From Flavobacteriaceae bacterium (GTDB taxonomy: Bacteria > Bacteroidota > Bacteroidia > Flavobacteriales > Flavobacteriaceae), in assembly GCA_017856205.1 (NCBI GenBank), contig JAFMFL010000002.1, forward strand, positions 1 to 44,673: DNA of 44,673 nucleotides, given 5' to 3'. Of the stretch, positions 40,650 to 44,258 are shown piece by piece (positions within the stretch are counted from its first letter, which is position 1; each line of letters opens with the position of its first letter). The notes beneath the pieces are model-generated. The model searched no databases. It was not told the DNA's origin and worked only from the letters and a program-made list of their open reading frames with translations. The position numbers were made by a program, and so were the translations under genes.

Positions 40650-42044
40650 ATGAATACACGGTATATTGATTTAATCGAACAAACATTTGACTTCCCTCAA
40701 GAAGAATTTGAGCTTTTTGGAAGTCATCTTACATTTCACGATATCGACTTAATGAAGTTGGTCGAAACCTACGGGACACCTTTAAAGTTTACCTATTTAC
40801 CCCAAATTTCCAATAACATTTCTAAAGTGAAAGGATGGTTTTCAGAAGCCATGGCTAAACACAACTATCAGGGTGCCTATCATTATTGCTATTGCACAAA
40901 AAGCTCTCATTTTAAATTTGTGCTTGATGAAGCGTTGAAAAATACTATACACATTGAAACCTCATCAGCCATTGACATTGATATTGTTGAAGAATTAAAA
41001 AAATTAGGAAAAATTTCCAATGACACATACGTTCTATGTAATGGCTTTAAGCGAGATCTATACATTGCTAATATTGGAAGATTAATTAACAATGGGCATT
41101 CTAATTGCATTCCAATCGTGGATAATTATGAAGAATTAAGCCTCCTTTCAGCCGCAGTAGAGGGTTCATATAATATTGGAATTCGAATTGCCTCTGAGGA
41201 AGAGCCAAAATTTGAGTTTTACACTTCAAGATTGGGAATTGGCTACAAAAATATTGTCCCATTTTTTAAAGAATATATACAGAACAATCCAAAAGTGGAC
41301 TTAAAAATGCTTCACTTTTTTATTAATACAGGCATTCGCGATAACGCGTACTATTGGAATGAGCTATTAAAATGCCTTCGTGTTTATACGACCTTAAAAA
41401 AATTATGTCCAACACTTGATAGTTTAAATATTGGCGGAGGTTTTCCAATTAAAAACTCACTCAATTTTAATTTTGATTACACCTATATAATTGAAGAAAT
41501 TATAAATCAAATTCAACTCACTTGTGAAGAAGAAAATGTACCGGTTCCAGATATTTTTACCGAATTTGGAAGCTTCACTGTTGGAGAAAGTGGTGGGTCT
41601 ATTTTTGAAGTTTTATATCAAAAGCAACAAAACGATCGAGAAAAATGGAACATGATTAACTCCTCCTTTATTACTACGCTGCCAGATTCTTGGGCAATAA
41701 ACAAACGCTTTATTATGTTGCCAATAAACAGATGGGAAGACCCCTATGAGCGTGTGCTTTTAGGAGGACTTACGTGTGATAGCGATGATTATTACAACAG
41801 CGAACAACATATTAATGCCATTTACCTTCCAAAGTTTGATACAAAGAAGCCGCTTTATATTGGATTCTTTAATACGGGGGCTTATCAAGAAAATATCGGT
41901 GGTTTTGGTGGATTGCAACATTGTTTAATTCCTAATCCAAAACACATTTTGATCGATAAAGATGAGAGCGGGGAAATTAGTACTCGTTTGTTCCGTAATC
42001 AACAAACCAAAGAAGATTTTTTTAAAATTCTAGGATATGATTAA
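40650..42044 (+). CDS. speA: Arginine decarboxylase (fold III PLP, short form)
   Basis: The predicted reaction is arginine to agmatine and CO2. The 464-residue protein has the PLP lysine K84 in YHYCYCTKSSHF, a glycine-rich phosphate site LNIGGGFPIKNS, and the substrate Cys376 in GGLTCDSDD. It is much shorter than E. coli SpeA (658 residues) and resembles the flavobacterial form. A diaminopimelate/ornithine decarboxylase activity cannot be excluded by sequence alone, but the agmatinase directly behind it (8-base overlap) supports arginine. Two ATGs just upstream are out of frame. Confidence 0.88.
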   Translation: MNTRYIDLIEQTFDFPQEEFELFGSHLTFHDIDLMKLVETYGTPLKFTYLPQISNNISKVKGWFSEAMAKHNYQGAYHYCYCTKSSHFKFVLDEALKNTIHIETSSAIDIDIVEELKKLGKISNDTYVLCNGFKRDLYIANIGRLINNGHSNCIPIVDNYEELSLLSAAVEGSYNIGIRIASEEEPKFEFYTSRLGIGYKNIVPFFKEYIQNNPKVDLKMLHFFINTGIRDNAYYWNELLKCLRVYTTLKKLCPTLDSLNIGGGFPIKNSLNFNFDYTYIIEEIINQIQLTCEEENVPVPDIFTEFGSFTVGESGGSIFEVLYQKQQNDREKWNMINSSFITTLPDSWAINKRFIMLPINRWEDPYERVLLGGLTCDSDDYYNSEQHINAIYLPKFDTKKPLYIGFFNTGAYQENIGGFGGLQHCLIPNPKHILIDKDESGEISTRLFRNQQTKEDFFKILGYD

Positions 42045-42990
42045 TGCTAAAACATACGCAGGAATTCCTGATAAATACACAAAATTAGACCGTGCTGAAG
42101 TAGTGCTTATTTCGGTTCCCTACGACGGTACAAGCACATGGCAGAAAGGTGCAGACAAAGGCTTTGATGCCTTTCTAGCCGCTTCTGATAACATGGAGCT
42201 CTACGATATTGAAACCAATAGCGAAGTGTATAAAAAGGGGATATATATTGCGGAAACTGTTGATGAGAATACCTCTGCGGCAGCTATGGTTGAACAAGTG
42301 CATAAAACTGTGAGAAAATACCTTCAACAAAACAAGTTTGTTACTGTTTTTGGCGGAGAACACTCTATCTCCATTGGAACAATTCGTGCCTTTAAGGATT
42401 CGTATAAAAACCTCACAGTACTCCACTTGGATGCGCATGCCGATTTGAGGGATGAATACAATGGAACTCCCTACAACCATGCATGTGCTGTTTATGAAGC
42501 TAGCAAAACTACCAATTTAATTCAGGTTGGAATTCGCTCTATGGATAGTACCGAAAAAGAGGCAATGAACAAAGACCAGGTCTTTTTTGCCGAGCAAATG
42601 ATATACGATGACTCTTGGATCGATCGTGCTATAGATATGATGACAGATCAAGTCTTTATCACTTTCGATGTGGATGTTTTTGACCCCTCCATAATGCCTT
42701 CTACGGGCACTCCTGAACCTGGTGGTTTGCTTTGGTATGAAACCATAGAATTTCTAAAAAAAGTGTTTATGGAGAAAAACGTTGTTGGCTTTGATATTGT
42801 TGAATTGTGTCCTAACCCTGCGAACAAAGCACCCGATTTTATGGTTGCTAAGCTCTATTATAAAATGCTGTCCTACAAGTTTTGTCAGCAGGACTACGAT
42901 GACTTTTTAGAGAACACTCCATCGATAGGAGAGGCAAAAAAAATAGATAAAATAAAAGAACATAACGAGTTTGAGGATGAAAATGAATAA
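42037..42990 (+). CDS. speB: Agmatinase/ureohydrolase
   Basis: This Mn-dependent ureohydrolase should convert agmatine to putrescine and urea. Metal ligands are H109 (GGEHSIS), D132, H134 and D136 (LDAHADLRD), D211 and D213 (FDVDVFDPS). The sequence MPSTGTPEPGG matches ureohydrolases. Length 317 residues, with an acidic/basic tail. Its ATG overlaps the arginine decarboxylase stop by 8 bases and its own end overlaps the DHS-like start by about 8 bases. Arginase or guanidinobutyrase are alternatives, but the coupling favours agmatine. Confidence 0.9.
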   Translation: MINAKTYAGIPDKYTKLDRAEVVLISVPYDGTSTWQKGADKGFDAFLAASDNMELYDIETNSEVYKKGIYIAETVDENTSAAAMVEQVHKTVRKYLQQNKFVTVFGGEHSISIGTIRAFKDSYKNLTVLHLDAHADLRDEYNGTPYNHACAVYEASKTTNLIQVGIRSMDSTEKEAMNKDQVFFAEQMIYDDSWIDRAIDMMTDQVFITFDVDVFDPSIMPSTGTPEPGGLLWYETIEFLKKVFMEKNVVGFDIVELCPNPANKAPDFMVAKLYYKMLSYKFCQQDYDDFLENTPSIGEAKKIDKIKEHNEFEDENE

Positions 42991-43957
42991 AAATGGAAAC
43001 ATATCGCAGTTTATAGACACCTATTTTTTGCATTTTAATGCTGCAGCTTTGGCGGACGCCGCCAAAGCCTATAACGAGCAATTAGAAAATGATGCAAAAA
43101 TGTTGGTTTCTCTAGCAGGAGCCATGAGTACCGCTGAAATCGGAAAAATATTTTCTGAAATGATTCGACAGAATAAAGTTCATATTGTTTCCTGTACGGG
43201 AGCTAATCTCGAAGAAGATATCATGAACTTGGTCGCTAATTCCCATTATAAACGTATCCCAAATTACAGAGACTTGACGCCTCAAGATGAATGGGAATTA
43301 CTTGTAAAAGGGTTGAATCGCGTAACGGACACTTGTATTCCTGAAGAAGAAGCTTTCAGGAAACTGCAACATCATATTTTTAAGATTTGGAAAGATGCTG
43401 AAGAAAATAATGAACGATATTTTCCGCATGAGTTTATGTATAAATTGTTATTGTCTGGAGTGTTGGAGGATGCGTATGAAATTGACCCCAAAAATTCATG
43501 GATGTATGCTGCTGCTCAAAAAAACCTTCCTATGGTTGTTCCAGGTTGGGAAGACAGCACCATGGGGAACATCTTTGCTTCCTATGTGCTAAAAGGTGAA
43601 CTCAAAGCGAGCACCATGAAATCGGGGATTGAATACATGACTTTTTTGGCAGATTGGTATAACAATAATTCTGATCATGGAATTGGATTTTTTCAGATTG
43701 GAGGTGGAATTGCGGGTGATTTCCCAATATGTGTTGTCCCAATGCTATATCAAGATATGGAACAAGAAAACACCCCTTTCTGGAGTTATTTCTGTCAAAT
43801 TAGTGACTCTACAACAAGCTACGGTTCCTACTCTGGTGCAGTTCCTAACGAAAAAATTACGTGGGGAAAACTGGATATAAATACACCCAAATTTATCATT
43901 GAAAGCGACGCTACAATTGTGGCACCTCTGGTATTTGCGTATATTTTAAACTTATAA
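42983..43957 (+). CDS. Deoxyhypusine synthase-like protein lacking the catalytic Lys
   Basis: This 324-residue protein belongs to the deoxyhypusine synthase family, in which NAD-bound enzyme transfers the aminobutyl group of spermidine to a lysine. It shows HIVSCTGANLEEDIMNLVA-type NAD motifs (SCTGANLEED), PGWEDSTMGN, the GGG of residues 240-242, and SGAVPNEKITWGK near the C terminus. The human enzyme reads GGGVVKHHI with catalytic Lys329; here the aligned position is Gly245 (GGGIAGDFPI). Bacteria lack eIF5A, so the substrate is more likely a polyamine. Starts possible: ATG 42977 or 42983; the latter gives the usual N terminus. Confidence 0.88.
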   Translation: MNKNGNISQFIDTYFLHFNAAALADAAKAYNEQLENDAKMLVSLAGAMSTAEIGKIFSEMIRQNKVHIVSCTGANLEEDIMNLVANSHYKRIPNYRDLTPQDEWELLVKGLNRVTDTCIPEEEAFRKLQHHIFKIWKDAEENNERYFPHEFMYKLLLSGVLEDAYEIDPKNSWMYAAAQKNLPMVVPGWEDSTMGNIFASYVLKGELKASTMKSGIEYMTFLADWYNNNSDHGIGFFQIGGGIAGDFPICVVPMLYQDMEQENTPFWSYFCQISDSTTSYGSYSGAVPNEKITWGKLDINTPKFIIESDATIVAPLVFAYILNL

Positions 43958-43958
43958 A

Positions 43959-44258
43959 ATGAAAAGAATAATTGTAGATTATAAAAAGTTGACTAAGGAC
44001 ATCTTGGATTTATTGATTACTCAATATCCATATGGATTTGATGACGAAGATGATATCATAGAATTTACCTTGGCTTCGGGAGAGATAGTTGAAGCGGTTA
44101 AAGTTTATACAGATGATACCATTTATTTGGTTAAAATAGGCAGCAAACTCACACAAGCCATTAAGGAATACGAAGAAGCTGTTTTTGAAAAAGATGATGA
44201 CTTCACGAACTTTCAAGACGACCATATAAATGATGATGAAACTCTGGAGGATAATTAA
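43959..44258 (+). CDS. Small acidic protein at the end of the polyamine operon
   Basis: This 99-residue protein has no family I can name with confidence. The N terminus (MKRIIVDYKKLTKDILDLLI) is helical and basic, a central beta section follows (IIEFTLASGEIVEAVKVY, DTIYLVKIG), and the last ~25 residues are strongly acidic (KDDDFTNFQDDHINDDETLEDN). It starts 1 base after the DHS-like stop, so it belongs to the same transcript. The acidic tail could interact with polyamines or a basic partner, which is speculation. Confidence 0.78.
   Translation: MKRIIVDYKKLTKDILDLLITQYPYGFDDEDDIIEFTLASGEIVEAVKVYTDDTIYLVKIGSKLTQAIKEYEEAVFEKDDDFTNFQDDHINDDETLEDN

Follow-up and report, generated by a model that had tools for sequence, protein, structure and literature searches.

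What does a bacterium do with a protein that resembles deoxyhypusine synthase (DHS), and could such a protein work without the lysine that carries the imine in the DHS mechanism? These questions are raised by a gene from a Flavobacteriaceae bacterium (assembly GCA_017856205.1). We analyzed positions 1 to 44,673 of contig JAFMFL010000002.1, and we refer to this whole stretch of 44,673 nucleotides as the window. The original prediction, which was made from the DNA alone, held that the protein has a glycine in place of the catalytic lysine and that it makes homospermidine or a related polyamine by some other chemistry. We argue that the catalytic lysine was looked for in the wrong place. The protein is very probably a homospermidine synthase that depends on NAD and on a lysine imine, as SpeY does, and it would belong to a divergent subfamily of these enzymes.

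The gene and its neighbors

The gene lies at 42983-43957 on the forward strand and encodes a SpeY-like protein of 324 amino acids. This protein matches the deoxyhypusine synthase family of Pfam (PF01916, DS) at 151.6 bits, as compared to a cut-off of 27, and it is the only match to PF01916 in its genome, which is a draft of 1.41 Mb and 82.6% complete. Directly upstream, and on the same strand, are a speA-like gene (40650-42044, 464 amino acids) and speB (42037-42990, 317 amino acids), as had been reported. SpeA overlaps speB by 8 bases, and speB overlaps the DHS-family gene by 8 bases. SpeB is an agmatinase (225.9 bits for TIGR01230, with a cut-off of 174.3). The SpeA-like protein is a decarboxylase with the alanine racemase fold (PF02784, 45.8 bits), and its best hit in NCBIfam is biosynthetic arginine decarboxylase, at 158.6 bits, which is below the cut-off of 369. 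Among 80 named loci, a SpeA-like gene was found in 79 and SpeB in 61.

Directly downstream of the DHS-family gene, at 43959-44258 on the forward strand, is an open reading frame for an acidic protein of 99 amino acids, which matches no family in Pfam or NCBIfam. It is a conserved neighbor: tblastn found a match in 67 of the 80 named loci, and 61 of these 67 begin at a distance of up to 100 bases from the end of the gene.

The structure of the protein was modeled with AlphaFold2 from 50 sequences. The mean pLDDT was 92.1, and the loop that bears the lysine (residues 271-300) is less certain, with block means of 68-77. VIA-align matched the model to human DHS (1dhs) with a Z score of 29.1 and an rmsd of 3.2 over 292 residues. 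Across the Foldseek and VIA-align comparisons, which covered 273-292 residues, the Z scores were 29.4 for the enzyme from Brugia (a nematode), 29.1 for those from human and Trichomonas, and 27.9 for Pyrococcus. As modeled, the protein has the DHS fold.

The position of the catalytic lysine

The claim of a missing lysine began with the motif GGGIAGDFPI, which is indeed found in the 324-residue product, with a glycine at position 245. This was compared to GGGVVKHHI in human DHS, whose lysine was taken to be Lys329. But in the human chains, the lysine of GGGVVKHHI has the number 287 (in 9iex_B, the line that ends with KHHI stops at 290), and Lys329 is the lysine of a WGK motif instead. The numbering of 1dhs is consistent with Lys287 once it is shifted by 8.

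The window protein has W294-G295-K296, so Lys296 (codon AAA, 43868-43870, forward strand) is the equivalent of the catalytic lysine. In the printed alignment, residues 271-319 of our protein pair without gaps with residues 296-344 of the 1dhs chain, and these are residues 304-352 of the 369-residue chain of 1rlz, which gives an offset of 8. The lysine of WGK is residue 321 of the 1dhs chain, and with the offset it becomes residue 329, which is paired with Lys296. Similarly, Trp294 (43862-43864) aligns with human Trp327 and Glu290 (43850-43852) aligns with human Glu323, both on the forward strand. Gly245 (43715-43717, forward strand) corresponds to Lys287 rather than to the catalytic lysine. 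The GGG motif lies outside the printed human alignment of the window protein, and the pairing of Gly245 with Lys287 and of the next residue, Asp246, with His288 comes from printed alignments with 8put and 8qzw and from the family alignments. The assignments of Lys287-His288 and of Trp327-Gly328-Lys329 are supported by their agreement with the published active-site residues His288, Trp327, and Lys329.

A family-wide alignment of bacterial DHS-like proteins had been suggested as a check. When we built one, from sequences that are close relatives by design and are unevenly sampled, a lysine was present at the site of Lys329 in 204 of 207 distinct sequences (all types, with the window protein included), and the other three have no letters there. 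Similarly, among 134 loci that were drawn from contigs of genomes and viruses, 131 encode W-x-K, and the remaining three have no letters at the site. The middle residue of this motif varies (it can be G, D, A, E, Q, H, F, N, or S) while the tryptophan and the lysine are invariant, as expected for catalytic residues. We rejected the idea of a glycine at the catalytic position because the alignments place Lys296 at human Lys329. Judging from these alignments, the headline of the original prediction is a numbering error, and a false claim of a lysine-less DHS mechanism can be removed.

The residues that do deviate

The real deviation from human DHS is at Asp246 (codon GAT, 43718-43720, forward strand), which the family alignments place at His288. 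In the accessible portions of the literature on DHS, Lys329 and His288 are described as catalytic, and Asp243, Asp316, Glu323, and Trp327 are described as binding spermidine (PMC9117371; similarly in PMC10042821). When Asp243 or His288 of human DHS is changed to alanine, the oxidation of spermidine is nearly abolished and hypusination is blocked entirely, and the K329A mutant has almost no spermidine oxidation and no hypusination (PMC10042821, as excerpted).

Three positions in the pocket are unlike those of human DHS: D243N, H288D, and D316Y. Aspartate is found at 246 in all 169 members of the window's clade that have letters there. Asn196 (43568-43570, forward strand) corresponds to Asp243, via a weak printed stretch of 11.1 bits, and it is conserved in 167 of 169 members, with glutamine in the other two. 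Tyr283 (43829-43831, forward strand) aligns with Asp316 and is also conserved in 167 of 169, with phenylalanine in one and a gap in another. His288 itself is kept in none of the bacterial sequences that we aligned. The other two types of bacterial proteins, which have GGGVPKNF (32 sequences) or GGGSPKNF (4 sequences), have lysine at 287 and asparagine at 288 (36 of 36). The GGGVPKNF type has a phenylalanine at Asp243 (32 of 32) and a leucine at Asp316 (31 of 32, with cysteine in L050), like CdmS, which is discussed below. By their aligned residues, then, Asp246, Asn196, and Tyr283 set the window's clade apart from both of the other types. In a tree of the 207 sequences, no PKNF sequence fell within this clade, but the branch is long and the support for the node is just 0.044, so we assign the clade from its residues and not from the tree.

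The window protein is not over the cut-off of any equivalog in NCBIfam: it scores 120.6 bits against PRK00770 ("homospermidine biosynthesis protein", cut-off 450), 120.3 bits against PRK00805 (cut-off 434), and 94.2 bits against PRK02492 ("1,9-bis(guanidino)-5-aza-nonane synthase", cut-off 500; from the product name, we take this model to stand for CdmS). Nor is any equivalog over its cut-off for a divergent member of the clade (L041) or for a member from a virus contig (L198). In contrast, both of the GGGSPKNF proteins that we scanned, which are from Bacteroidota, pass PRK00770, and both of the GGGVPKNF proteins that we scanned (L002 and L050, from the same phylum as the window) pass PRK02492. 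Because the window's type falls below all of the equivalogs while the scanned proteins of the other types pass theirs, it is a separate subfamily.

This subfamily is widespread. Of 149 genomes of the class, 102 (including the window's own) encode a protein of this type that is at least 64% identical; another 6 have a more distant match, of 25-28% identity, and the other 41 have no match. Across the phylum, 233 of 296 genomes contain PF01916 of any type. The 30 loci that were returned by the phylum-wide search with PF01916 were all of the GGGVPKNF type, and the flavobacterial loci were added by their coordinates. Overall, the novelty is modest: this is a distinct subfamily with aspartate at His288 and with scores below every curated functional model. 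We searched the literature on DHS-like enzymes from bacteria and from flavobacteria, with most subscription papers lying outside the search, and found no assay of any member of this clade.

Polyamine synthesis in related genomes

Flavobacteria are known for their homospermidine. According to the available text of PMC8570120, two strains of Flavobacterium contain 27.3 and 20.5 umol/g of sym-homospermidine, along with 0.7 and 0.2 umol/g of putrescine and 0.2 and 0.3 umol/g of spermidine. A genome paper (PMC3072086) names homospermidine as the major polyamine throughout the family.

To see where homospermidine might come from, consider the polyamine genes in a panel of 36 genomes: the window's own, all 29 that the phylum-wide search listed from the same family, and all 6 that it listed from the same order, with two genomes that lack the gene included. 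We counted a genome as having the gene if it had a match to PF01916 with E between 1e-39 and 1e-44, which is the range for the window's type. This gave 34 of 36 genomes, of which 17 were also confirmed by sequence, tblastn, or identity. All 34 have a SpeA-type match and a route from agmatine to putrescine, and both of the genomes without the gene lack the SpeA-type match. (By SpeA we mean here the second and weaker match to PF02784, and we confirmed in part that it adjoins the gene.)

The route to putrescine varies. It is an agmatinase over the cut-off in 17 of the 34 genomes, an agmatine deiminase with an AguB-like protein in 13, and an agmatinase-like protein below the cut-off in 4. The AguB-like proteins score 319-329 bits, which is below the model's cut-off of 410. 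In the last four genomes, an arginase-family protein is closest to agmatinase, and in two of them it scores 163.0 and 168.7 bits, as compared to the cut-off of 174.3. In the loci L220 (929-2008), L221 (1000-2079), and L222 (1030-2112), which are from three genomes with neither an agmatinase over the cut-off nor an agmatine deiminase, this arginase-family protein has 360 residues; both of the scores come from these loci, and it is probably a divergent agmatinase. PF04371 had matches in 20 of the 36 genomes, including two weak ones (71 and 85 bits), and two further genomes (G210 and G257) have a match to PF04371 without a strong AguB-like partner. From the named loci, the 17 genomes without an agmatinase over the cut-off would be Flavobacterium.

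Known sources of spermidine are less common. SpeD is present in 9 of the 36 genomes, and the same 9 have a strong match to SpeE (PF01564, 130-154 bits). SpeD was not found in 25 of the 34 genomes with the gene, and NspC was over its cut-off in none of the 36. PF01564 itself was over its cut-off in 23 of the 36 genomes: besides the 9 strong matches, there are 13 in genomes with the gene (22-59 bits) and one in a genome without it (81 bits). Given that SpeD is missing from most of these genomes and that NspC was not found, the DHS-family gene is the obvious candidate for the source of homospermidine.

The proposed reaction and its alternatives

In DHS, as described in the accessible text of PMC9117371, NAD is used for oxidation, Lys329 binds the aminobutyl group as an imine, this group is transferred to an acceptor, and the product is reduced; human DHS also accepts putrescine as the acceptor, which yields homospermidine. 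Because the equivalents of Lys329, Trp327, and Glu323 are kept, the window protein is likely to use the same imine route. Furthermore, the available parts of PMC9992855 and PMC10407285 describe bacterial homologs of DHS as SpeY homospermidine synthases that are clustered with speB.

We propose that SpeA would make agmatine and SpeB would convert it to putrescine, with both enzymes encoded in the same cluster of overlapping genes. NAD+ would oxidize putrescine; Lys296 (human Lys329) would carry the aminobutyl group as an imine and then hand it on to a second putrescine; and NADH would reduce this imine to give sym-homospermidine. We infer this reaction and its substrate, and we also infer that Asp246 would do the work of human His288. 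Whether it would act as an acid or base or would hold the amine is a guess. With its substitutions at Asp243, His288, and Asp316, the pocket may be adapted to putrescine.

The gene cluster, the co-occurrence of the genes in 34 of 34 genomes, and the polyamine profiles of the family all argue for the synthesis of homospermidine from putrescine with the help of the upstream genes, so on this point the original prediction is well supported, and the product that it proposed is probably right. Its lysine-independent route is not supported, as Lys296 is conserved in every relative with letters there, and direct action on agmatine, which it also allowed, is less likely, as 13 of the 17 genomes without an agmatinase over the cut-off have agmatine deiminase and an AguB-like protein. 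The enzyme is mostly ordinary, as bacterial DHS-like homospermidine synthases that are encoded near speB are already in print. What is gained is an assignment: the homospermidine step of the Flavobacteriaceae, for which taxonomy papers had supplied the chemistry, can now be attributed to a single subfamily that is widely conserved.

It is unlikely, but the rebuilt pocket of Asn196, Asp246, and Tyr283, with aspartate for the catalytic histidine, could mark this clade as a third kind of polyamine synthase with the DHS fold in the Bacteroidota, next to the PRK00770 (SpeY) and PRK02492 (caldomycin) types, and one that couples something other than two putrescines. Another idea, which we consider decidedly unlikely, is that the protein couples two agmatines, as CdmS would, and that a ureohydrolase (SpeB) then frees homospermidine. 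CdmS from Thermus is a homolog of DHS that couples agmatine, according to the accessible part of PMC10981699; the gene adjoins speA and speB; and in all 16 of the named loci from Flavobacterium, speA abuts the gene and there is no speB beside it. However, the window protein misses PRK02492 by a wide distance (94.2 bits, with a cut-off of 500). Also, human Asp243 and Asp316 are matched by Phe204 and Leu286 in CdmS but by asparagine and tyrosine in the window's clade, and the phenylalanine (32 of 32) and leucine (31 of 32) belong to the GGGVPKNF type, of which two proteins pass PRK02492. Finally, AguA with an AguB-like protein is a known pair for converting agmatine to putrescine, and it is present in 13 of the 17 genomes that have the gene but have no agmatinase over the cut-off. 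Because agmatine deiminase takes the place of agmatinase, the shared end point seems to be putrescine rather than agmatine.

It is very unlikely that spermidine or another amine is the main substrate, for example spermidine with putrescine as in the homospermidine synthases of plants. DHS-type enzymes have been reported to be promiscuous (PMC8437039 and PMC7780104, as excerpted), but most of these genomes have no recognized supply of spermidine: SpeD is missing from 25 of 34, and NspC is over its cut-off in none. A genuine deoxyhypusine synthase, with a protein as its target, would share the fold and the catalytic lysine, yet this seems extremely improbable, as the gene is within a polyamine cluster and we found no match to eIF5A (PF01287) in any of the 36 genomes. 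(The same search was positive in three archaea that served as controls but missed Haloferax volcanii, and the draft genome that contains the window has a completeness of 82.6%.) That Gly245 occupies the catalytic site of a lysine-independent enzyme is scarcely conceivable, as Gly245 is at Lys287 and Lys296 is at the catalytic Lys329.

Homologs in probable phage contigs

The accessible text of a 2023 study reports that BLASTP found no SpeY in phages. In our searches, tblastn with the window protein gave no match in plasmid or phage records, tblastn with its relative from a virus contig (L198) gave no match in phage records, and PHROGs had no family for the window protein at E of 0.001. A collection of virus contigs contained 54 loci of the DHS family, and 3 of 16 records with a homolog had a match to terminase (we searched one terminase family).

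W-x-K is kept in the two homologs that are described next. One is 44% identical (L201, 1885-2829, from the 97,459-bp record G434), and the other is 75% identical (L166, 5001-5966, from the 154,411-bp record G425). G434 also encodes terminase, portal, a primase, and an SbcC-like protein, while G425 encodes terminase, tail sheath, and an SbcC-like protein. Because terminase occurs along with portal or tail sheath genes, we take both records to be phage sequence, although they may be chimeric assemblies. So the window's clade seems to occur in phage contigs as well.

The same enzyme is also found on a very large contig with a match to terminase (L164, 4992-5957, from the 464,605-bp record G424), where it is followed by a metallophosphoesterase and by a 282-residue protein that resembles class II tRNA synthetases. 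Separately, L198 and L206 are flanked by open reading frames of similar sizes.

Comparison with known systems

The window protein has in common with human DHS its fold (Z of 29.1), Lys329, Trp327, and Glu323, and also, by a weaker printed stretch, Glu137 and Asp238. It differs from human DHS in having aspartate for His288, asparagine for Asp243, tyrosine for Asp316, and glycine for Lys287, and eIF5A was not found in the 36 related genomes. By its Pfam score, its fold, and its equivalent of Lys329, it is a member of the DHS superfamily; with aspartate for His288 and with no match to the eIF5A substrate in the 36 genomes, it would not be a deoxyhypusine synthase in the strict sense.

CdmS (PRK02492/NF002699) is similar to the window protein in its DHS fold, its catalytic lysine, and its supply of arginine and agmatine. 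But the window protein has Asn196 and Tyr283 instead of phenylalanine and leucine, and its 94.2 bits are far from the cut-off of 500. It is the GGGVPKNF proteins (L002 and L050) whose sequences suggest that agmatine may be coupled outside of Thermus.

SpeY (PRK00770/NF001980), as described from Anabaena and SAR11 in the accessible portions of PMC9992855, has the DHS fold, the catalytic lysine, clustering with genes for putrescine, and homospermidine-containing hosts in common with the window protein. However, the window protein's 120.6 bits are well below the cut-off of 450, and it has GGGIAGDF, whereas the two scanned proteins from Bacteroidota that pass PRK00770 have GGGSPKNF. Finally, the bacterial homospermidine synthase of the Blastochloris viridis type should make the same product as the window enzyme, but, according to the part of PMC4725965 that we cite, it has no lysine in its active site and forms no Schiff base.
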